NCBI GenBank assembly: GCA_000230955.3
Contig: CP007060.1
Coordinates: 2,300,216-2,364,215 of the forward strand
Direction of reading: 5' to 3'
Length of the DNA stretch: 64,000 nt
Source of the DNA: Halobacterium sp. DL1
Lineage (GTDB): Archaea; Halobacteriota; Halobacteria; Halobacteriales; Halobacteriaceae
Shown here: positions 21,337 to 31,059 of the stretch, one piece after another
Position numbering within the stretch: position 1 is the stretch's first letter
Layout: every line of letters begins with the position of its first letter
Notes under the pieces: generated by a model
What the model was told of the DNA's origin: nothing
Databases searched by the model: none
Seen by the model: the letters and a program-made list of their open reading frames with translations, nothing else
Made by a program: the position numbers and the translations under genes

Positions 21337-22245
21337 ATGGCTACCGAGACCGACCTCGAGGACCTGCGGCGCGGCAGCGACCTCGTGAAGCGCGGCTTCG
21401 CGAAGATGCAGAAGGGCGGCGTCATCATGGACGTCGTCGACGCAGAACAGGCGAAGATAGCGGAGGAGGCCGGCGCGGTCGCAGTGATGGCGCTGGAGGC
21501 CGTCCCGGCGGACATCCGGAAGCGTGGCGGCGTCGCGCGGATGGCCGACCCCGCGGACGTGAGCGAGATCGTCGACTCCGTCTCCATCCCGGTGATGGGG
21601 AAGTCCCGCATCGGCCACACGAAGGAGGCAGAGATTCTCCAGGCGGTTGGCGTGGACATGATCGACGAGTCCGAGGTGCTGACGCCCGCGGACGACAAGT
21701 ACCACATCGACAAGCGCGACTTCACCGCGCCGTTCGTCTGTGGCGCGCGGAACCTCGGCGAGGCGCTCCGGCGCATCGACGAGGGCGCGGCGATGATCCG
21801 CACGAAGGGCGAGGCCGGCACGGGCGACGTGAACCAGGCCGTCCACCACCAGCGCACCATCAAGAGCGCAATCCGTGAACTCGAGGGGATGACCCACGAG
21901 GAGCGCGAGCACTACGCACGCGACATCGAGGCGCCCGCGGAACTCGTCCACGAGACCGCCGAGATGGGGCGACTGCCGGTCGTGAACTTCGCGGCGGGCG
22001 GCATCGCGACGCCCGCGGACGCGGCGCTGATGATGCACCACGAGTGCGACGGCATCTTCGTCGGCTCCGGCATCTTCGGCGCGGAGGACCCCGAATCGAT
22101 GGGACGCGCCATCGTCGACGCCGTGAACAACTGGGACGACCCCGAGCGACTCGCAGACATCTCTTCGAACATCGGCTCCGGCATGAAGGGCGAGGCGAAC
22201 GCCGACCTGCCCGAGGAGGAGAAGATGCAGGGCCGCGGGAACTGA
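21337..22245 (+). CDS. pdxS: Pyridoxal 5'-phosphate synthase lyase subunit PdxS
   Basis: A 302-aa enzyme that builds pyridoxal 5'-phosphate from ribose 5-phosphate, glyceraldehyde 3-phosphate and ammonia delivered by PdxT. The barrel motifs are complete: [40 protein letters not shown], the Schiff-base Lys in [11 protein letters not shown], the second Lys in [12 protein letters not shown], and the phosphate-binding [13 protein letters not shown]. No pdxT gene is in the window. The ATG at 21337 is chosen from the TATA spacing and family N-terminus; upstream sequence in frame belongs to the repeat. Confidence 0.97.
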
Positions 22246-22594
22246 GCGCACAGACCCGCTTTTCAACGGGCGCTTCACCGCGCGCTGCCAGCGGCACCGC
22301 TGCGAGCCGTGTAACTCCGATACGTCGACCGCGCGGCTCGCGGGCCACTTCGTTCATCGTTCACTCAGGCCGCGGTCTCGCTGCGCTCGACCGCGCGCCC
22401 GCCCACCACCCCCCGAAAACACCCCCAATTCGAGACCGAACCGCGGGGATTTCTCGGTGAACCGACAACCAGACGTACCCAGGCATCCCAAGACCTATTA
22501 TCTCCTTTGAGGCGCCGCCATCTTGCGATTCGCGGAATCGTGCCCCGACGACCGTGAACGATCCCCGCGCGTCAGCCTCTGTCAGGGGGAAACA
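22246..22594. other. Intergenic region between pdxS and the leuA promoter
   Basis: No gene seen. It contains a GC-rich repeat at 22327-22400 that is the reverse complement of a similar element at 31975-32041 (shared core GCGCGGTCGAGCG-AGCGAG-CCGCGG). The rest is unremarkable. Confidence 0.55.
22327..22400 (-). repeat. GC-rich dispersed repeat, copy A
   Basis: Read on the minus strand it begins CGGGCGCGCGGTCGAGCGCA and ends in CCCGCGAGCCGCGCGGTC. The order of short blocks matches 31975-32041 on the plus strand. The arms CGCGG/CCGCG allow a hairpin. It is related in style (AGCGAAGCGAG cores) to the structured element at 21121 but is not the same family. Confidence 0.5.
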
Positions 22595-22602
22595 TGTATA
22601 AG
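22595..22602 (+). promoter_or_regulatory. TATA box of leuA
   Basis: TGTATAAG lies about 30 nt before an ATG at 22628 and about 52 nt before the GTG start used for leuA. A leaderless transcript from this box would begin at the ATG of the small out-of-frame ORF, not at the leuA start. Confidence 0.55.
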
Positions 22603-22627
22603 CGAGGGGCGCTCCGAGTCAATCACG

Positions 22628-22699
22628 ATGTCTCACAACGAGGCGCCCGGTGCAAGTCCGGGGGAACGGGTTCTTCGAGGGCACGTTAGCCCAGCGTAA
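22628..22699 (+). CDS. Possible upstream mini-ORF overlapping the leuA start
   Basis: A 23-codon frame (MSHNEAPGASPGERVLRGHV...) begins where a leaderless mRNA from the 22595 TATA box should start and ends inside leuA in another frame. It may be a short regulatory peptide, or the true leuA start may be misread because of a sequence difference. A small inverted repeat CCCGG/CCGGG (22646-22662) spans the leuA GTG. I cannot decide from sequence alone. Confidence 0.3.
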   Translation: MSHNEAPGASPGERVLRGHVSPA

Positions 22700-23852
22700 C
22701 GAGTTCGAGAAAGTACGAGTTTTCGATACGACGCTCCGCGACGGCGAGCAGACGCCACGGACCTCATTCGACTACGACGACAAGCGCACCATAGCCGCTG
22801 CGCTGGACGACGCGAACGTCCACGTCATCGAGGCCGGATTCCCAGCCAACAGTGAGGCCGAGGCCGAGGCAGCCGCGGACATCGCCGACTCGACCGACGC
22901 CGCGACCTGCGGGCTCGCCCGTGTCGTGGAGTCGGACGTCGAGGCGGCCGTAAACGCGGGCGTGGACATGGTCCACGTGTTCGCCTCCACGAGCGACGTC
23001 CAGATCGAGGACTCGATGCACACAACGAGAGAACAGGTAGTAGAGCGCTCCGTCGCAGCGGTCGAGCAGGCCGCTGCATCCGGCGCCGACGTCATGTTCT
23101 CGCCGATGGACGCCACCCGCACCGACCCCGCGTTCCTCGCGGAGATCGTCGAAGCGGTCGACGAGGTCGGCATCGAGTGGATCAACATCCCAGACACCTG
23201 CGGGGTCGCCACGCCGCGGCGGTTCGGCGACCTCGTCGAGTTCGTCGGCGAGCACACCGACGCCCGCATCGACGTGCACACGCACGACGACTTCGGCCTC
23301 GCCACCGCGAACGCGCTGGCGGGCGTCGAAGCCGGTGCGGACCAGGTGCAGGTGTCGGTCAACGGCATCGGCGAACGCGCCGGCAACGCGGCCTTCGAAG
23401 AGGTCGTGATGAGCGCCGAGAGCGTCTACGGCGCCGACACCGGCATCGACACGACCGCCATCGCGGACCTGTCGAAGCTGGTCGCCGAGCGCTCTTCGGT
23501 GCCGATTCCGGTGAACAAGTCCATCGTCGGGGCGAACGCGTTCGCCCACGAGTCGGGCATTCACGCCGCGGGCGTCATCGAGAACAGCGAGACGTTCGAG
23601 CCGGGCGTCATGACCCCCGAGATGGTCGGCGCCCAGCGCGAAGTCGTGCTCGGGAAACACTCCGGCACGCACGCCGTACGCAAGCACCTGCAGGAGGCGG
23701 GCTACGACCCCTCCGACACGGAGGTACGGGCGGTCACCAAGAAGGTGAAGGCCCACGCCAGCGACGAAGACGTCGTTACGGAGGCAGACCTGCGGGCGTT
23801 CGCAGGCGAGGTCGGCGTCGAGCGCGCCACCGAAGAGGTGCACGCGAAATGA
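22650..23852 (+). CDS. leuA: 2-Isopropylmalate synthase / (R)-citramalate synthase-type enzyme, without regulatory domain
   Basis: A 400-aa condensing enzyme that joins acetyl-CoA to a 2-oxo acid (2-oxoisovalerate for leucine or pyruvate for isoleucine). The HMGL-type barrel is complete: RVFDTTLRDGEQTPRTSF, HVIEAGFPANS, the metal-binding HTHDDFGLATANAL, and VNGIGERAGNAAFEEVVM. Subdomains up to DEDVVTEADLRAF follow, but the C-terminal leucine-binding regulatory domain of about 110-120 residues found in typical IPMS is absent. FFEGTLAQ just before the barrel is conserved in haloarchaeal LeuA, supporting this frame. The GTG start at 22650 is provisional. Confidence 0.88.
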   Translation: MQVRGNGFFEGTLAQRNEFEKVRVFDTTLRDGEQTPRTSFDYDDKRTIAAALDDANVHVIEAGFPANSEAEAEAAADIADSTDAATCGLARVVESDVEAAVNAGVDMVHVFASTSDVQIEDSMHTTREQVVERSVAAVEQAAASGADVMFSPMDATRTDPAFLAEIVEAVDEVGIEWINIPDTCGVATPRRFGDLVEFVGEHTDARIDVHTHDDFGLATANALAGVEAGADQVQVSVNGIGERAGNAAFEEVVMSAESVYGADTGIDTTAIADLSKLVAERSSVPIPVNKSIVGANAFAHESGIHAAGVIENSETFEPGVMTPEMVGAQREVVLGKHSGTHAVRKHLQEAGYDPSDTEVRAVTKKVKAHASDEDVVTEADLRAFAGEVGVERATEEVHAK

Positions 23853-23880
23853 GCGGCAACGCTTGCGCGACCAGCAACGG

Positions 23881-23887
23881 CTTTATG
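23881..23887 (+). promoter_or_regulatory. TATA box of the ilvB leader region
   Basis: CTTTATG, preceded by the BRE-like CAACGG, is centred about 29 nt before an ATG at 23913. The spacing predicts a leaderless transcript beginning at the leader-peptide ORF. It gives the ilv-leu genes their own promoter separate from leuA. Confidence 0.6.
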
Positions 23888-23912
23888 CGACGAGCTACTG
23901 CTGGCACGTACG

Positions 23913-23984
23913 ATGCAGTCGCACACCGCACTCCCCGGTTCGTCCGTGGTCAGCGGTGTGGCTGTCGGTATTGTAGGGGCGTAA
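23913..23984 (+). CDS. Putative 23-aa leader peptide upstream of ilvB, Val/Ile-containing
   Basis: A 23-codon ORF starts at the expected transcription start of the promoter above. Its second half reads VVSGVAVGIVGA: five Val and one Ile in residues 12-21, plus one Leu earlier. Its last codons (Val21, Gly22) form the 5' arm of a hairpin, and its TAA stop (23982-23984) lies in the loop. Codons 16-19 form one arm of an 11-bp long-range stem. The content and position match leader peptides of branched-chain amino-acid operons in bacteria. Archaeal examples are not familiar to me, so the role is inference. Confidence 0.5.
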   Translation: MQSHTALPGSSVVSGVAVGIVGA

Positions 23985-24042
23985 GCTACCCCTATCACCA
24001 TTCTCAATCGACCGAGTCGTTCCACGAACACCCGACAGCCAC
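23958..24042 (+). promoter_or_regulatory. Leader RNA structure: 11-bp stem enclosing a 6-bp hairpin
   Basis: GTGGCTGTCGG (23958-23968, leader codons Val-Ala-Val-Gly) is perfectly complementary to CCGACAGCCAC (24032-24042). Inside this loop TAGGGG (23974-23979) pairs with CCCCTA (23989-23994). No T-run follows the hairpin, so a simple intrinsic terminator is not evident; translational control is more likely than termination. Confidence 0.5.
23987..23993 (+). promoter_or_regulatory. Candidate anti-Shine-Dalgarno segment TACCCCT
   Basis: TACCCCT is exactly complementary to AGGGGTA (24096-24102), which overlaps the ilvB ribosome-binding site. The same CCCC block is the 3' arm of the hairpin with leader codons 21-22. 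The two pairings exclude each other, which is the logic of a switch. Confidence 0.45.
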
Positions 24043-24055
24043 TGCAGTATCCGCA

Positions 24056-24109
24056 ATGACACAGACACCAACGAACCGCGACACCACACCACGGGAGGGG
24101 TATCGATGA
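24056..24109 (+). CDS. Second mini-ORF, 17 aa, stop overlaps ilvB start
   Basis: A 17-codon frame, MTQTPTNRDTTPREGYR, ends in TGA within the ATGA that starts ilvB. Five of 17 residues are Thr, the precursor of 2-oxobutyrate in one isoleucine route, though the link may be chance. It has no Shine-Dalgarno of its own; the ilvB Shine-Dalgarno lies inside it. Translation of this frame would couple to ilvB initiation. Confidence 0.35.
   Translation: MTQTPTNRDTTPREGYR
24093..24100 (+). promoter_or_regulatory. Shine-Dalgarno sequence of ilvB
   Basis: GGGAGGGG contains GGAGG, 7 nt before the ilvB ATG, matching the 16S anti-SD core CCTCC. Strong SDs are not the rule in haloarchaea with leaderless mRNAs, which fits initiation here at an internal site. 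It overlaps the segment complementary to 23987-23993. Confidence 0.6.
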
Positions 24110-25914
24110 CAGATCAGGGCGCAGTGCCGGAGTTCGGCGACAGCGAGCGTCCACACGACGGCGAAGCGAACGAACAGGACGGAGCTGAGGACAGCCAGTC
24201 GGAGTCGACCGAGGACGCCGAACCCACGACCCGGACCGGCGCGGAGTCGGTCGTCGCGTCGCTGGAGACGGCCGGCGTCGACACCGTCTTCGGAGTTCAG
24301 GGCGGCGCCATCATGCCCGTCTACGACGCGCTGTACGACTCCGACCTCGGCCACGTGACGATGGCCCACGAGCAGGGTGCGGCCCACGCCGCCGACGCCT
24401 ACGGCTCGGTGACCGGGAAGCCGGGCATCTGCATGGCCACCTCCGGGCCGGGGGCGACGAACCTCGTCACCGGCATCGCCGACGCCGACATGGACTCCGA
24501 GCCGCTCGTCGCGCTGACGGGGCAGGTGCCGACCGACCTCGTCGGGAACGACGCGTTCCAGGAGACGGACACGATCGGCGTCACGACGCCCGTGACGAAG
24601 TCGAACTACTTCGCGTCCAGTTCCGACACCGTCGGCGAGGACGTGAGCACGGCGTTCGCGCTCGCCGAACACGGCCGGCAGGGGCCGACGCTCGTCGACC
24701 TGCCGAAAGACGTGACGCTGGGCGAGACGGAGGCCGAACCGACCGAGCCGTCGGTCCCGGACACCGTGAGCGTCCGCGAACACGCGAGTGACGAGGACGT
24801 GGCCGCCGCCGCCGAGACCATCGCCGACGCCGACCGACCCATCATTCTGGCGGGCGGCGGCGTCGTGAAGGGCGAGGCCACCGACGAGGTCCGGGCGTTC
24901 GCCACGGAACACGAGATTCCCGTCGTCACGACGATGCCGGGCATCGGCGCGTTCCCGGAGGACCACGACCTCGCTATGGAGATGGCGGGGATGCACGGCA
25001 CTGGCTACGCGAACATGGCGGTGACGATGACCGACTGCATGCTCGCGGTCGGCACGCGCTTCGACGACCGCCTGACCGGGGGCGTCGACTCGTTCGCGCC
25101 GGACGCGGAGCTCGTCCACGTCGACATCGACCCCGCGGAGATATCCAAGAACATCGAGGCCGACCACCCGCTGGTCGGGGACGCCAGTACTGTTATCGAG
25201 CAGTTGGCGGACGCGTTGCCGGCCTCCCCGGACACCGACGAGTGGGTCGCGCAGTGCGCCGAGTGGAAGACGGAGTACTCGATGGACTACGGAGTCCACG
25301 AGGACGGCCCGGTGAAACCCCAGTACGTCGTCGAGACCGTCGACGCGGCCACGGACGACGACACCGTCGTCACAACCGGTGTCGGCCAGCACCAGATGTG
25401 GGCGTGCCAGTACTGGACGTACACGCAGCCCCGGACGTGGATCTCCTCCCACGGCCTCGGCACGATGGGGTACGGGCTGCCCGCGGCCATCGGCGCGCGC
25501 GTCGCCGCCGACGACGACCAGTCGGTCGTCTGCTTCGACGGCGACGGCTCGTTCATGATGACCTGCCAGGAGCTGGTCGTCGCGGTGCGCGAACAGCTCG
25601 ACATCACGGTGTTCGTGCTGAACAACGAGGCCATCGGGATGGTCCGGCAGTGGCAGGACGCGTTCTTCGAGGGGCGCCGGATGGCCTCGGAGTACCCCTG
25701 GGTGCCGAAGTTCGACAAGCTCGCCGAGGCGTTCGGCGCCACCGGCTTCCGCATCGAGGAGTACGACGACGTGCCGGACACCGTCGAGGCGGCGCTCGCC
25801 GTCGACGGCCCGTCCGTCGTGGACGTCTACATCGACCCCGCGGAGAACGTCTACCCGATGGTTCCCTCGGGCGGCGACAACGGCCAGTTCGCGCTCTCGG
25901 AGGACCAGCTATGA
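24106..25914 (+). CDS. ilvB: Acetolactate synthase, large (catalytic) subunit
   Basis: A 602-aa thiamine-diphosphate enzyme that condenses two pyruvates, or pyruvate and 2-oxobutyrate, in valine/leucine/isoleucine synthesis. Residues 1-45 are an acidic low-complexity extension. The Pyr domain follows with the catalytic Glu in MAHEQGAAHAADAYG, a central domain, and the ThDP domain with CFDGDGSFMMTCQELVVAV and FVLNNEAIGMVRQWQ. The next gene, ilvN, overlaps by ATGA. Expression is probably governed by the leader region upstream. Confidence 0.97.
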   Translation: MTDQGAVPEFGDSERPHDGEANEQDGAEDSQSESTEDAEPTTRTGAESVVASLETAGVDTVFGVQGGAIMPVYDALYDSDLGHVTMAHEQGAAHAADAYGSVTGKPGICMATSGPGATNLVTGIADADMDSEPLVALTGQVPTDLVGNDAFQETDTIGVTTPVTKSNYFASSSDTVGEDVSTAFALAEHGRQGPTLVDLPKDVTLGETEAEPTEPSVPDTVSVREHASDEDVAAAAETIADADRPIILAGGGVVKGEATDEVRAFATEHEIPVVTTMPGIGAFPEDHDLAMEMAGMHGTGYANMAVTMTDCMLAVGTRFDDRLTGGVDSFAPDAELVHVDIDPAEISKNIEADHPLVGDASTVIEQLADALPASPDTDEWVAQCAEWKTEYSMDYGVHEDGPVKPQYVVETVDAATDDDTVVTTGVGQHQMWACQYWTYTQPRTWISSHGLGTMGYGLPAAIGARVAADDDQSVVCFDGDGSFMMTCQELVVAVREQLDITVFVLNNEAIGMVRQWQDAFFEGRRMASEYPWVPKFDKLAEAFGATGFRIEEYDDVPDTVEAALAVDGPSVVDVYIDPAENVYPMVPSGGDNGQFALSEDQL

Positions 25915-26537
25915 GCGAGCGACAGGACCAGCAGGGCCTGCGAGGGCCGGCCCCGGAGGACCGCCAGCGACCCGCGGGCCGCCGGAACGCCCAGGGCATC
26001 CGCATCGACCCGGAGGCGGAGGCCGAACACCCGCCACGACGCACCGTCATCTCCGCGCTCGTCGAGCACGAGCCGGGGGTGCTGGCGCGGGTCTCCGGGC
26101 TGTTCAGCCGGCGGCAGTTCAACATCGAGTCGCTGACCGTCGCGGACACCCAGAACGACGACTGGGCGCGCATCACCGTCGTCGTCGAGGAACCGGACCC
26201 CGGCATCGACCAGGTGGAGAAGCAACTCGAGAAGGTCGTCCCCGTCATCCACGTCCGCGAACTCGAGGCCGACGCGGTCACGCGGGAGCTCGTGGTGGTG
26301 AAGGTGGACGCGGACCGACCGAACGAGGTCCACGCCATCACGGAGATGTACAGCGGGAAGACCCTCGACGCCGGACCGCGAACGATCACGGTCGAGTTGA
26401 CCGGCGACGAGCAGAAGATAGACGACGCCATCGACGCCTTCCGTCAGTTCGGCATCCGCGAGATAGCGCGGACCGGACAGACGGCGCTGGCGCGTGGTGA
26501 GACCAAGACAGCAGTCGTTCCAGATTACCTTAAATGA
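25911..26537 (+). CDS. ilvN: Acetolactate synthase, small (regulatory) subunit
   Basis: A 208-aa regulatory partner of IlvB. After an acidic/basic N-terminal extension of about 40 residues, an ACT domain begins at [33 protein letters not shown], the usual valine-binding domain, and a C-terminal ALS small-subunit domain ends at about residue 190. It starts at 25911, overlapping the ilvB stop, and its own stop overlaps ilvC (26534). Confidence 0.96.
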
Positions 26538-27601
26538 CAGACTCAGATTTCACGCAGCCAGTGTACCACGAATCGGACGCAGACCGACGCTACATCGACG
26601 ACAAGACCGTCGCCGTACTCGGCTACGGTAGCCAGGGTCACGCCCACGCGCAGAACCTCGCGGACAGCGGCGTCGACGTCGTCGTCGGCCTGCGCGAAGA
26701 CTCCTCCTCGCGGTCGGCCGCCGAGGCCGACGGCCTGCGCGTCGAGACGCCGACGCAGGCGGCCAGCGAGGCCGACGTCGTCTCGGTGCTCGTGCCGGAC
26801 ACCGTCCAGCCGTCGGTGTTCGAGGCCATCGAACCGGAACTGGACGCCGGCGACACCCTCCAGTTCGCGCACGGCTTCAACATCCACTACGGCCAGATCG
26901 AACCGCCGGAGAACGTCGACGTGACGATGATCGCGCCGAAGGCGCCGGGCCACCTCGTGCGCCGGAACTACGAGAGCGGCCAGGGGACGCCCGCGCTGCT
27001 CGCGGTGTACCAGGACGCGACCGGCGACGCCCAGCAGGAGGCCCTCGCCTACGCCCACGCGCTCAGTTGCGCCCGCGCGGGCGTCGTGGAGACGACGTTC
27101 CGCGAGGAGACCGAGACCGACCTGTTCGGCGAGCAGGCCGTCCTCTGTGGCGGCATCTCGGAGCTCGCGAAGATGGGGTACGAGACGCTCGTCGACGCCG
27201 GCTACAGCCCCGAGATGGCGTACTTCGAGTGCCTGAACGAGATCAAGCTCATCGTCGACCTGATGTACGAGGGGGGACTGGGCGCGATGTGGGACTCCGT
27301 CTCGGACACCGCCGAGTACGGCGGGGTCACTCGCGGCGAGTCGGTCATCGACGACTCCGTCCGCGAGAACATGGAAGAGGTCCTCGAACAGGTCCAGAAC
27401 GGCGAGTTCGCCACCGAATGGGTGTCGGAGAATCAGGCCGGCCGTCCCTCCTACCGCCAGCGCCGCAAGGCCGAACAGAACCACGAGATCGAGGACGTCG
27501 GCGAACGCCTCCGCGCGCTGTTCGCGTGGGCCGACGAGGAGACCAACGAGGAGAATTCCGAGGAGCGGGAGCGGGAGTCGGGGGTGTCCGCCGATGACTG
27601 A
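26534..27601 (+). CDS. ilvC: Ketol-acid reductoisomerase
   Basis: A 355-aa NADP-dependent class I KARI that isomerises and reduces acetolactate or acetohydroxybutyrate. The N-terminal Rossmann motif is [17 protein letters not shown]; the knotted catalytic domain has [32 protein letters not shown] and [18 protein letters not shown] with the metal-binding Asp/Glu residues. The C-terminal 25 residues are an extra Glu-rich tail. It overlaps the ilvN stop and the next small gene by a few bases. Confidence 0.97.
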
Positions 27602-27866
27602 GCGAACGATGCGGAGCGTCAGTCAGCGGAACCCGGCCGACCGCGAGAACGTCTTCGGGCGCGTGTTCCGACGCGGGCCGACCGTCGCCACCGACGGTGG
27701 CCAGCGGGAGGGCGCAGAGAGCGCCGAGGACGATGACGAGGAGCGCTCGCCGGGCGAACAGACGATGAAGGACGTCGACCAGACCCCGCCGGACGAGGCC
27801 GAGGGCGCCAATCGTGTCTGGAAGCGCGGCGGCGAGCCACCCGTACCGGAGACGGCAGAGGAGTAA
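27594..27866 (+). CDS. Unknown 90-aa protein inserted in the ilv-leu operon
   Basis: A 90-aa hydrophilic protein with no motif I recognise; the middle is Asp/Glu-rich and the C-terminus reads [20 protein letters not shown]. It starts at 27594, overlapping the ilvC stop by 8 nt, and stops 3 nt before leuC, so it is translated within the operon. It may be a small regulatory or assembly factor for the pathway, but nothing in the sequence proves this. A later Met at 27609 is an alternative start. Confidence 0.65.
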
Positions 27867-27869
27867 TCG

Positions 27870-29291
27870 ATGAGCGAAGGTACGCTGTACGACAAGGTGT
27901 GGGACCGGCACGCGGTGACCGAACTGCCGACGGGGCAGACACAGCTGTTCGTGGGGCTCCACCTCGTCCACGAGGTGACGAGTCCGCAGGCGTTCGGGAT
28001 GCTCGAGGAGCGCGGCCTCAAGGTGGCGTTCCCCGAGCACACACACGCGACTGTCGACCACATTGTGCCGACCGCCGACCAGTCGCGGCCGTACGAGGGT
28101 GCCGCCGAGGAGATGATGACCGAACTCGAAGAGAACGTCCGCAGGACGGGCATCGAGTTCGACGACCCGACGACGGGCCGGCAGGGCATCGTCCACGTGG
28201 TCGGCCCGGAGCAGGGGCTCACCCAGCCCGGGAAGACCATCGTCTGTGGCGACTCCCACACCGCGACCCACGGCGCGTTCGGCGCGCTCGCCTTCGGCAT
28301 CGGCACCTCCCAAATCCGGGACGTGCTCGCCACCGGCTGCATCGCCATGGAGAAGCAGAAGGTCCGCCGCATCGAGGTGACCGGCGAACTCGGCGAGGGC
28401 GTCACGGCGAAGGACGTCATCCTGGCGGTCATCCGGAAACTCGGCACCGACGGCGGCGTCGGCTACGTCTACGAGTACGGCGGCCCCGCCATCGAGGAGA
28501 TGGAGATGGCCGGCCGGATGAGCATCTGCAACATGAGCATCGAGGGTGGCGCCCGCGCGGGGTACGTCAACCCCGACGAGACCACCTACGACTACCTCGA
28601 GGGCCGCGAGAAGGTCCCCGAGGGCGAGGCATTCGACGAACTGAAAGCGTACTGGGAGTCGATCCGCTCCGAGGAGGACGCGACCTACGACGACGTAGTG
28701 GAGATTGACGGGAGCGAACTCGAACCCACCGTGACGTGGGGGACGACGCCTGGGCAGAGCGTCGGTATCTCCGAGGCGATTCCAGCGCCCGAGGACATGC
28801 CGGCCGGGAAGCAGGACGTGGCGCGGAACTCCCAGGCGCACATGGGCGTCGAACCGGGCGACACGATGGACGGCTACCCGGTCGACGTGGCGTTCCTGGG
28901 CTCGTGTACGAACGCCCGACTGCCGGACCTCCGCGCTGCCGCGGAGGTCGTCCGCGGCCGCGAGGTCCACGACGACGTCCGCGCGATGGTCGTCCCCGGC
29001 AGCCAGCGCGTGAAGGCCGCCGCTGAGGCCGAGGGCCTCGACGAGGTGTTCACCGAGGCGGGCTTCGACTGGCGCGGCGCCGGCTGTTCGATGTGCCTCG
29101 GGATGAACGAGGACCAACTGGAGGGCGCGGAGGCGTGTGCGTCCTCCTCGAACCGGAACTTCGTCGGGCGGCAGGGCTCGAAGGAGGGGCGGACGGTGCT
29201 GATGAGTCCGCCGATGGTCGCCGCCGCCGCGGTGACCGGCGAGGTCACCGACGTGCGCGAACTGGCTCCCCGGGAGGAGGTCCAGCAATGA
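27870..29291 (+). CDS. leuC: 3-Isopropylmalate dehydratase, large subunit
   Basis: A 473-aa aconitase-family subunit that isomerises 2- and 3-isopropylmalate. The [4Fe-4S] cysteines are in FLGSCTNAR and [14 protein letters not shown]; the active-site segment [24 protein letters not shown] is intact. The length is full for the bacterial-type LeuC. It begins 3 nt after the 90-aa gene and overlaps leuD by ATGA (29288). Confidence 0.96.
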
Positions 29292-29896
29292 GCGGTCCCG
29301 CCGACACCGTCCGCGAGGTATCGGGGACGGGCGTCCCCGTTCGCGGGAACGACATCGACACGGACCAGATCATCCCGGCGCGCTTCCTGAAGGTCGTCAC
29401 GTTCGACGGCCTCGGGCAGTTCGCGTTCTTCGACCAGCGGTTCACGGACGACGACGAGCAGAAGGACCACCCGTTCAACGAGGAGCGCTACCAGGGCGCC
29501 TCGGTGCTCGCGGTGAATGCGAACTTCGGCTGTGGCTCCTCTCGTGAACACGCGCCACAGGCGCTGATGCGGTGGGGAATCGACGCCGTCGTCGGTGAGT
29601 CATTCGCCGAGATCTTCGCGGGGAACTGCCTCGCGCTCGGCATCCCCACGGTCACCGCCGACGCCGAGGACGTGCAAGCGCTCCAGGACTGGATCGCCGC
29701 GAACCCGGACGACGAGGTAGAGGTCGACGTCGCCGCAGAGGAGATCCGATACGGCGACACGACCGTCGACGCGACTGTGGACGACGCACAGCGGCGTGCG
29801 CTCGTCGACGGCGTCTGGGACACGACCGCGCTGATGGGGTCGAACGAGCAAGCAGTGCGCGAGACTCGCGCCTCCCTCCCCTACACCGATGACTGA
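29288..29896 (+). CDS. leuD: 3-Isopropylmalate dehydratase, small subunit
   Basis: A 202-aa swivel-domain partner of LeuC. Signature segments are [16 protein letters not shown] near the N-terminus and [22 protein letters not shown] with the substrate-specificity residues, followed by [10 protein letters not shown]. It overlaps leuC (ATGA) and leuB (8 nt). Confidence 0.96.
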
Positions 29897-30854
29897 GGAG
29901 ATCCTGGTCATCCCGGGCGACGGCATCGGCGCGGAGGTTCTGCCTGTCGCCGTCGACGTGCTGGACGCCGTCGGCGACTTCGAATTCGTCCGCGCGGACG
30001 CGGGCGACGCGGTCGCCGCCGAGACCGGCACGGCGCTACCCGAGGAGGCGCGGGCGGCAGCCGAATCGGCCGACGCGACGCTGTTCGGTGCGGCCGGCGA
30101 GACTGCCGCGGACGTCGTTCTGCCGCTCCGCGCGGCAGTGGACTCGTTCGTGAACGTCCGACCGGCGCGTGCCTACCCTGGAGTGGAGGCAGTCAAGCCG
30201 GAGACTGACCTCGTCTTCCTCCGGGAGAACTCGGAGGGCGTCTACGGCGGCCACGAGGCCACGCTCGCCGACGGCGTGGCGACGACGACCCGCGTCATCA
30301 CCAGAACGGCCACGGAGCGCCTCGCGGAATACGCCTGTGAGTTCGCACCGGAGGGGTTCACCATCGCCCACAAGGCCAACGTGATGCGGGAGACCGACGG
30401 CCTGTTCCTGGAGACGGTCGAGCGGGTCGCCGAGGAGCGAGGCGTTCCGACGCAGGCCGAACTGATGGACGCGATGGCGACGCACCTCGTGCAGTCCCCC
30501 GAGGACTACGACACGGTGGTCTGTCCGAATCTTGCGGGCGACGTGCTCTCGGACCTGGCGGCCGGCCTCGTCGGTGGTCTGGGTCTCCTCCCGTCGGCGA
30601 ACGTCGGCCCGGAGCGTGCACTGTTCGAACCGGTCCACGGCTCCGCGCCGGACATCGCAGGGAAGGGCGTGGCGAACCCGACGGCGGCGGTGCTGTCGGC
30701 CGCGATGCTGCTGGAGTTCTTCGACTACGACGAGGACGGACAGCGCGTCCGGACAGCGGTCGAGCACGTGCTCGCGGAGGGGCCGCGGACGCCCGACGTC
30801 GGCGGCGAGGCGACCACCGAGGAAATGGGCGCCGCGCTGCTCGACCGACTCTGA
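29889..30854 (+). CDS. leuB: 3-Isopropylmalate dehydrogenase
   Basis: A 321-aa enzyme that oxidatively decarboxylates 3-isopropylmalate to 2-oxoisocaproate. It has the family's N-terminal [10 protein letters not shown], the substrate Arg/Tyr segment [26 protein letters not shown], and the signature [27 protein letters not shown]. At 321 aa it is slightly shorter than bacterial LeuB, as in other archaeal forms. It is the last gene of the run. Confidence 0.95.
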
Positions 30855-31059
30855 ACGGTCCCACTAGTTCTTCGGTCTGGTCAGGGAACGCTACCGGTGG
30901 GGCTGACAGGCGACGCGCTGCGGGTCGAAGACTGTCCCGCGACGGTGCGCCGCACGACCGCGGGTCGCCGCGGTCCGATTTCTACATCACGGGCCGCAGT
31001 GCTCCCGGCTTCGTACTTCAACCCTCGCAGACGACAGCGTGTCGTGAGGAGTCCCTGGA

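Follow-up and report, generated by a model that had tools for sequence, protein, structure and literature searches.

The leuA–ilvB region of Halobacterium sp. DL1

The window analysed here is a stretch of 64,000 nucleotides from the Halobacterium sp. DL1 genome (contig CP007060.1), and the features of the leuA–ilvB region set out in this section lie on its forward (+) strand. leuA, whose coding frame (22650..23852) gives HMGL-like and 2-isopropylmalate synthase matches and is probably entered by translation from an out-of-frame ATG at 22628, is followed by ilvB (24106..25914), encoding the large subunit of acetolactate synthase (TIGR00118, E 3e-208). The space between the two genes is spanned by a bridging open reading frame (ORF) of 86 codons (23849..24109), whose ATG overlaps the leuA stop codon and whose TGA overlaps the ilvB ATG. 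Nested within it, and set so that the bridging ORF runs in the -1 frame relative to it, is ORF1 (23913..23984), a leaderless-type ORF of 23 codons that would encode the leader peptide MQSHTALPGSSVVSGVAVGIVGA. A TATA-like element of a candidate internal promoter, TTTAT (23882..23886), lies 31 nt 5′ of the ORF1 ATG at 23913. Close to the end of ORF1, the proposed sensor codons ATT (Ile20) and GTA (Val21) occupy positions 23970..23975 and run into a hairpin (23974..23994), in which TAGGGG (23974-23979) is opposite CCCCTA (23989-23994) and the ORF1 stop codon TAA (23982-23984) sits in the loop. Further 3′ are a pyrimidine box, TTCTC (24001..24005), a candidate terminator element that is weak in this genus, and a second small ORF, uORF2 (24056..24109), which reads MTQTPTNRDTTPREGYR without any Val, Ile or Leu, ends in a TGA overlapping the ilvB ATG and contains a possible ilvB Shine–Dalgarno sequence, GGGAGGGG (24093..24100). 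No Rfam family reached its gathering score within window positions 22000-31000, and ORF1 gave no Pfam or NCBIfam match.

A previous sequence-only reading of this DNA had described the TATA box ahead of a leaderless ORF, the 23-codon leader and the hairpin with its stop codon in the loop, as well as two longer-range pairings, one between TACCCCT (23987-23993) and AGGGGTA (24096-24102) and the other an 11-bp complementarity between GTGGCTGTCGG (23958-23968) and CCGACAGCCAC (24032-24042). All of these are present in the window as claimed. The T-rich boxes, uORF2 and the bridging frame are new with respect to that reading.

Distribution of the leader among haloarchaea

Searches with the IlvB protein yielded 13 genomes of the genus, the present one included, and 80 named loci, the nearest of which belong to Halobacterium. 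This gives 93 loci, among which the window's own is counted and some organisms are present in both collections. The earlier reading had suggested looking for a conserved short Val/Ile ORF in the leuA–ilvB gap of related haloarchaea. Of the 93 loci, which were fetched by IlvB protein alone, 92 have the end of the leader ORF and the hairpin in this gap, and the single exception (L078) is cut by its contig, with no leuA on it. The core sequence in the 92 loci is ATTGTAGGGG in 77, ATCGTAGGGG in 14 and ATAGTAGGGG in 1.

Expressed as the pattern ATHGTAGGGGN{4,11}CCCC, the motif was matched, anywhere in the genome, in 375 of 391 genomes of the haloarchaeal class, while a reversed-pattern control was found in about 60 of the same 391. 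A stricter pattern occurred in 51 of 81 class genomes versus 7 of 311 other genomes of the phylum; one of these seven, G698, was inspected and looks fortuitous, lying beside a long T run and having no ATG in the 60 nt translated. Eleven of 60 automatically fetched pattern loci fell outside the leuA–ilvB setting, comprising two second copies of the leader, one locus with leuA and no ilvB, and eight apparent chance matches. Sixteen class genomes lack the pattern. Ten of them retain a recognisable form of the leader, namely L014, with CCC in place of CCCC, and nine diverged leaders (L156-L164); in four others, from families f5 and f11 (L165-L168), ilvB lies close to leuA and the leader is missing, and the remaining two are a locus cut by its contig (L169) and a genome without an ilvB match.

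Not counting a second copy of the locus in the window, 181 loci were collected and reduced to 121 non-redundant ones (<80% identity over 190 nt), of which 51 came from the IlvB searches and 70 from the pattern, which presupposes ATH-GTA-GGGG. The ilvB start was not defined in 10 of the 121, leaving 111 for the uORF2 counts, 26 of them without an ATG-started uORF2. Structure tests were run on the 78 or 64 loci of ordinary spacing, the 73-locus counts concern common-phase loci only, and the shuffle controls ignore phylogeny. Within this sampling, comparison shows the start and end of the putative leader ORF, the proposed sensor codons, the hairpin, the T-rich boxes, uORF2 and the bridging frame to be conserved.

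A candidate leader peptide with a conserved Ile-Val end

In 117 of 121 loci, ORF1 has an in-frame ATG 39-110 nt upstream, compared with 1 and 13 in the other two frames, and it is present in 114 of 120 loci versus 71.7 +- 5.2 when the overlapping bridging-frame codons are shuffled. Ahead of this start, the 121 loci display a T-T-A-T peak at -32 to -29 and A-A at -37/-36, the TATA peak being partly built in because ORF1 starts were assigned using a TATA criterion. Taken with the geometry of archaeal promoters, the position of the T-T-A-T suggests that a transcript starts at or near the ORF1 ATG. The openness of ORF1 was discarded as evidence in its favour, since the absence of stops in its frame (0 seen, 1.9 +- 1.1 expected) is to be expected from the bridging codons alone; the case for ORF1 thus rests on its ATG, sensor codons, stop and promoter spacing.

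The body of the peptide varies between loci. Its end reads Ile-Val-Gly, and the next residue is Ala or Val in 120 of the 121 loci and Gly in 1. The stop codon comes immediately afterwards or one codon later in 117 of the 121 non-redundant loci, and five codons later in 4. In L022, L023, L024, L031, L033, L038, L074 and L093, the stop in the loop is lost and ORF1 extends five codons past IVGA, ending just 3′ of the hairpin.

The earlier reading had placed the sensor at Val codons 12-13. Those residues vary, and the conserved codons are ATT/C-GTA at 20-21. Val is encoded by GTA in 92 of 92 IlvB-fetched loci with both flanks, and Ile by ATT in 77, ATC in 14 and ATA in 1; in the non-redundant set, GTA is used in all 121 loci and ATT in 92 of them, including 42 of the 51 that were not chosen by the pattern. 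Both are rare in leuA and ilvB of the same loci, GTA accounting for 2.5% of the codons for Val and ATT for 8.7% of those for Ile. Rare codons serve as the sensor in bacterial attenuators. Base pairing does not explain the constancy of GTA: all 51 non-redundant IlvB-fetched loci have this codon, although its A is unpaired in 17 of them and its T in 28. The nine diverged leaders keep GTA as well, preceded by Val in three (L159, L161, L163), Leu in one (L164), Ile in two (L158, L160) and Arg in three (L156, L157, L162). In the last three, Ile stands one or a few codons before the Arg-GTA, and the hairpin is changed in L156 and L157; the Arg directly before GTA is a point against a strict two-codon rule.

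No excess of third-position substitutions was detected in ORF1, the interval or uORF2, indicating that only the frames and a few residues are constrained. Conservation of the peptide sequence was rejected on this lack of a codon-position signal, and an arrest peptide is accordingly unlikely. What holds of the earlier leader-peptide idea is the class-wide occurrence, before ilvB, of a leaderless-type peptide with branched-chain codons; the sensor position and the two longer-range pairings proposed with it are not supported. On these patterns, we consider it highly probable that the conserved haloarchaeal ilvB leader is a leader-peptide sensor of Ile/Val supply.

The hairpin and the T-rich boxes

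Folding predicts the GGGG:CCCC hairpin for 63 of the 64 non-redundant loci modelled. The pair adjoining the GGGG/CCCC stem is C-G in 85 of the 121 loci, T-A in 8, T-G in 9, G-C in 1 and non-standard in 18, and both arms have changed together in two diverged leaders (CGGG/CCCG in L158 and GGGC/GCCC in L160). A shared consensus fold extending beyond this hairpin was sought with RNAalifold on 64 loci, which returned only the hairpin itself, and no conserved alternative helix of the anti-terminator kind was found in 64-78 loci.

The RNA 3′ of the hairpin is G-poor and pyrimidine-rich. In 45 of 121 loci, TT(C/T)TC follows the C-run at a distance of 4-24 nt, mostly 10-13 nt, versus 6.4 +- 2.2 loci after shuffling. 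TTTTC follows it at 24-48 nt in 23 of 121 versus 1.5 +- 1.4, and T3+C occurs in 62 of 121 loci versus 6 in each of two control windows. The starts of TT(C/T)TC or TTTC cluster at 10-13 nt and again at about 34-37 nt after the C-run. Intergenic terminators of Haloferax volcanii are described as T stretches with a conserved TC, of which a T5C element terminated 95% of transcripts in a reporter (PMC7237163). The resemblance of the T-rich boxes 3′ of the hairpin to these published terminators favours termination as the output and, granted that the leader is a leader-peptide sensor, we incline slightly towards transcription termination rather than translation as the step it would control. In the window's own genome, such a terminator would be weak, given that TTTT is found in the interval in 0 of the 5 Halobacterium loci of the uORF2 set and that the window's own box is only TTCTC.

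uORF2 ends on the ilvB start

The ilvB start takes the form xTGA in 107 of 111 loci, and an upstream ATG in the frame of that TGA opens a uORF2 in 85 of the 111. Such ATGs lie 80-99 nt after the motif in 66 of 97 cases, and the uORF2 ATG lies 80-95 nt after it in 63 of 85 loci, while the length of uORF2 ranges from 5 to 45 codons. Its composition is unusual in branched-chain residues: in the 73 common-phase loci, Val, Ile and Leu together account for 26 of 1060 uORF2 codons (2.5%), versus 103 of 989 (10.4%) and 89 of 989 (9.0%) in the other frames, and 53 of 85 uORF2 peptides contain none of the three, versus 24.8 expected by nucleotide shuffling. Phe is not depleted (8, versus 1 and 7 in the other frames). 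The three residues are also scarce (5.4%) over the 29 codons that follow the Met of IlvB. In the same frame upstream of the uORF2 ATG, from the hairpin onwards, there is little avoidance (10.7% versus 14.0 and 12.4%), with one part of this stretch being lower (9.1% versus 17.4 and 17.8%). We read the scarcity of Val, Ile and Leu in uORF2 as selection for translation that is independent of branched-chain amino acids.

The bridging frame from leuA to ilvB

In 117 of 121 non-redundant loci, an ATG or GTG lying -6 to +10 nt from the leuA stop codon opens the bridging frame. Its end falls -1 to +8 nt from the start of ilvB in 94 of 111 loci, and 91 of 121 show both the start and the end in these ranges. 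It is free of stops within the ORF1 regions of all 121 loci, where a codon shuffle gives 55 +- 6, and free of stops between the hairpin and uORF2 in the 73 common-phase loci, where 18 +- 4 are expected and the other two frames have 15 and 16. From the hairpin to ilvB, it is open in 88 of 89 loci of common ilvB phase; ilvB is in another phase in 22 of 111 loci, and in the 12 of 85 uORF2 loci that differ in phase, the bridging frame meets a stop. The phase between ORF1 and the bridging frame is 2 mod 3 in 73 of the 85 loci with a uORF2, and 44 of the 58 changes in the hairpin–uORF2 distance on a leuA tree are multiples of 3 (P 4e-11 versus one third).

The bridging ORF might be an ordinary small gene, with ORF1 and the hairpin as by-products devoid of any regulatory role, as would suit the observation that its openness is unexplained by ORF1 whereas that of ORF1 is explained by the bridging codons. 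This explanation appears very improbable to us, however, because the predicted product is Arg-rich, with a median pI of 11.5 compared with 4.05 for IlvB (40 loci), no codon-position signal is seen in the bridging frame, rare codons are what the conserved nucleotides specify, and the base in which ATT, ATC and ATA differ follows ORF1 and not the bridging frame. The Arg-rich, basic nature of its product makes it more likely that the bridging ORF acts as a ribosome carrier than that it encodes a folded protein. Translational coupling has been observed in Haloferax, according to a review (PMC12548453).

A possible frameshift in leuA and second copies of the leader

The 5′ end of leuA in the window (22628-22699) has a leader ATG at 22628, followed by the site GTTCTTCGAGGGCAC from 22670, and apparently needs a +1 frameshift. 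In leuA 5′ ends, the promoter-proximal ATG opens an ORF ending in VLPGH, VLRGH or similar, in a frame other than that of LeuA. The exact site GTTCTTCnAGGGCAC is found in 75 of 84 distinct leuA 5′ ends, each time in one and the same phase and preceded by an open leader ATG; in 37 of the 75, the LeuA frame has no ATG, GTG or TTG. leuA hence seems to require a +1 frameshift at Val-Leu codons. The start-codon anomaly of HVO_1510 (leuA2) has been noted before, in a text that suggests slippage when leucine is absent (PMC8305020).

A comparable event could be imagined in ORF1 itself, whereby a starved ribosome at ATT/GTA would shift -1 (or +2) into the bridging frame, read to the TGA on ilvB and restart there. 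Such hungry-codon frameshifting would account for the fixed phase between ORF1 and the bridging frame (2 mod 3 in those 73 uORF2 loci, and open to ilvB in the 88 noted above) and would have a parallel in the shift that the neighbouring leuA appears to need. We nevertheless judge it improbable: the bridging frame is open upstream of the sensor too, and from the leuA stop, which a shift at the sensor would not need; no slippery heptamer was seen; and Val, Ile and Leu are hardly avoided overall between the hairpin and uORF2.

Away from leuA and ilvB, two genomes of one genus (G128 and G327; loci L096 and L097) carry a second copy of the Ile-Val-Gly-Val leader with its hairpin, which precedes a small ORF without a Pfam or NCBIfam match. 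A relative of that small protein is encoded in the window between ilvC and leuC (27594-27866), so that the second leader also precedes a relative of a gene of this operon. The ORF at 27594-27866 has 90 codons and two short repeats, one of the form NRVWKRG, and 103 of 194 class genomes have relatives of its second half, in many cases a few kb 3′ of the leader.

Longer-range pairings and possible control of translation

The three pairings of the sequence-only reading fared differently when followed across relatives: the GGGG/CCCC hairpin is kept, the Shine–Dalgarno pairing is not enriched and the 11-bp helix shows no compensation. In that reading, a ribosome reaching the leader stop would free the CCCC arm to sequester the ilvB Shine–Dalgarno sequence. 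Beyond the exact 7-nt complementarity in the window, a helix of 7 bp or more between the arm and the Shine–Dalgarno sequence arises in 2 of 111 loci, both Halobacterium (the window and L013). Over the 111 loci, the longest such helix averages 3.29 bp versus 3.45 bp in shuffled sequences and, without enrichment, sequestration was rejected as a general mechanism. In folds of 64 loci, the summed pairing exceeds 0.5 in 3 and is 0.0 in all four Halobacterium loci among them. The CCCC starts 5 nt after the ORF1 stop codon, and a ribosome sitting on this stop would itself cover the CCCC arm. Taken together, these points make sequestration by the CCCC arm extremely improbable.

CCGACAGCCAC (24032..24042) is conserved in Halobacterium and does not covary with its complement in ORF1. 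Of 13 Halobacterium loci, 5 keep nine pairs of the 11-bp helix all Watson–Crick, 1 keeps them with a single G-U and 7 have them broken; no double change was seen, and a covarying regulatory helix was rejected on the lack of any compensating change in these 13 loci. A neighbouring 5-bp block (GCGGT x ACYGC) is paired in 13 of 13, two with G-U. The Shine–Dalgarno pairing and the 11-bp helix are present in this genome and are not general features.

A different form of translational attenuation deserves more weight. A ribosome stalled on the leader could cover ORF1 codons that otherwise pair with the region of the uORF2 start, so that uORF2, and ilvB coupled to it, would be translated only in starvation, with no termination involved. 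Helices that join ORF1 to the sequence immediately 5′ of the uORF2 ATG over some 7 bp or more are indeed about 4-5 times as frequent as in shuffles of the 64 loci (12 versus 2.2 loci at -7), although at -7 they concern roughly a fifth of the loci. When the sensor is masked as if occupied by a ribosome in folds of the same 64 loci, the uORF2 start becomes more accessible in 29 and less accessible in 3, with a mean gain of 0.04. The position of the uORF2 ATG, kept at 80-95 nt in most loci while the length of uORF2 varies, would also fit. Against these, the energies of the duplex between ORF1 and the uORF2 start are near those of shuffled sequences (mean z of -0.5, with 9 of 78 loci ranking fifth or better out of 100), and the nine helix pairs in Halobacterium show no covariation. 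Translational control of uORF2 therefore ranks next after termination as the possible output, and we regard it as rather unlikely.

A model for the ilvB leader

The explanation that we prefer overall, and to which we would give about an even chance of being correct, is transcription attenuation that senses Ile- and Val-tRNA inside a translationally bridged operon. The internal promoter between leuA and ilvB would give rise to a leaderless transcript beginning with ORF1, and the ribosome trailing RNA polymerase would have to decode the rare ATT/ATC and GTA codons at the foot of the GGGG/CCCC hairpin. When charged tRNA-Ile or tRNA-Val is scarce, the ribosome would wait there and keep the hairpin open, and polymerase would pass the T-rich boxes; when charged tRNAs are plentiful, the ribosome would finish at the stop in the loop and leave, the hairpin would close, and the transcript would end in the T-rich interval before ilvB. 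Read-through transcripts would carry uORF2, which is nearly free of Val, Ile and Leu and whose stop overlapping the ilvB start could pass ribosomes on to ilvB under starvation as well. Where transcription starts at the leuA promoter, the bridging ORF would carry ribosomes along the long transcript from leuA to ilvB and thereby override the attenuator. The use of the promoter, the stalling, the termination, the coupling and all regulatory effects are inferences from sequence comparison.

More tentatively, and with less than even confidence, the locus may represent a class-wide form of archaeal operon control by ribosome decoding alone, in which about 260 nt are read as a leaderless sensor ORF that ends on rare Ile-Val codons in a hairpin, as a carrier ORF poor in Val, Ile and Leu that brings ribosomes to ilvB, and as a bridging ORF that links leuA to ilvB and overrides the attenuator, next to a leuA under a +1 shift at Val-Leu codons. 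If leader-peptide attenuation does operate here, archaea would sense amino acids by leaderless translation in nearly all sampled haloarchaea, and genetically tractable species would allow a test of whether the ribosome controls polymerase in archaeal leaders. The scarcity of Val, Ile and Leu in uORF2 would provide a simple evolutionary fingerprint of starvation-proof translation, which could be searched for elsewhere.

Comparison with known systems

Leader-peptide attenuation is a textbook form of bacterial control, with the ilv and leu operons of E. coli among the cases. The ilvBNC operon of Corynebacterium is also described as being under a bacterial leader-peptide transcription attenuator (PMC10272879, PMC11857589). 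In the open-access literature covered, no archaeal leader-peptide attenuator was recognised, and a word search in the text of a review on archaeal recoding returned neither 'leader peptide' nor 'attenuation' (PMC8211752). Small uORFs in long 5′-UTRs of Haloferax volcanii have been reported, including ones before two tRNA-ligase genes; ilvB is not among the 16 uORFs in leaders of 150-250 nt, and the section describing them proposes no attenuation (PMC4983044). The ones located before pheS and before a gene for tryptophan-tRNA ligase (PMC4983044) may represent further amino-acid leaders.

Like the bacterial ilv/leu attenuators, the haloarchaeal leader has a short ORF with branched-chain codons and a hairpin upstream of ilvB. 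It differs from them in its leaderless-type ORF, in having only two or three consecutive sensor codons, placed inside the foot of the hairpin, in showing no conserved anti-terminator, in being nested in a bridging ORF, and in its archaeal host and lack of an Rfam match. Its T box, 10-13 nt 3′ of the hairpin, is unlike a bacterial intrinsic terminator. With the T-stretch terminators described for Haloferax (PMC7237163), the candidate boxes share a T stretch with TC, here enriched behind a hairpin, the window's own box being only TTCTC. With translational attenuation of the erm type, as outlined in PMC5118997, the leader would have in common the possible release of a start region further 3′ by a ribosome stalled on it, whereas the signal would be tRNA charging rather than a drug and the target a second uORF coupled to the gene. 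The leuA2 (HVO_1510) anomaly concerns a neighbour in the same pathway and likewise involves a suspected leucine-dependent decoding event, but it bears on leuA, and a word search of that paper's main text did not return ilvB (PMC8305020). Finally, the xTGA overlaps that join the bridging ORF and uORF2 to ilvB resemble the translational coupling reviewed for Haloferax (PMC12548453), with the difference that the upstream ORFs here look like ribosome carriers and not like proteins.
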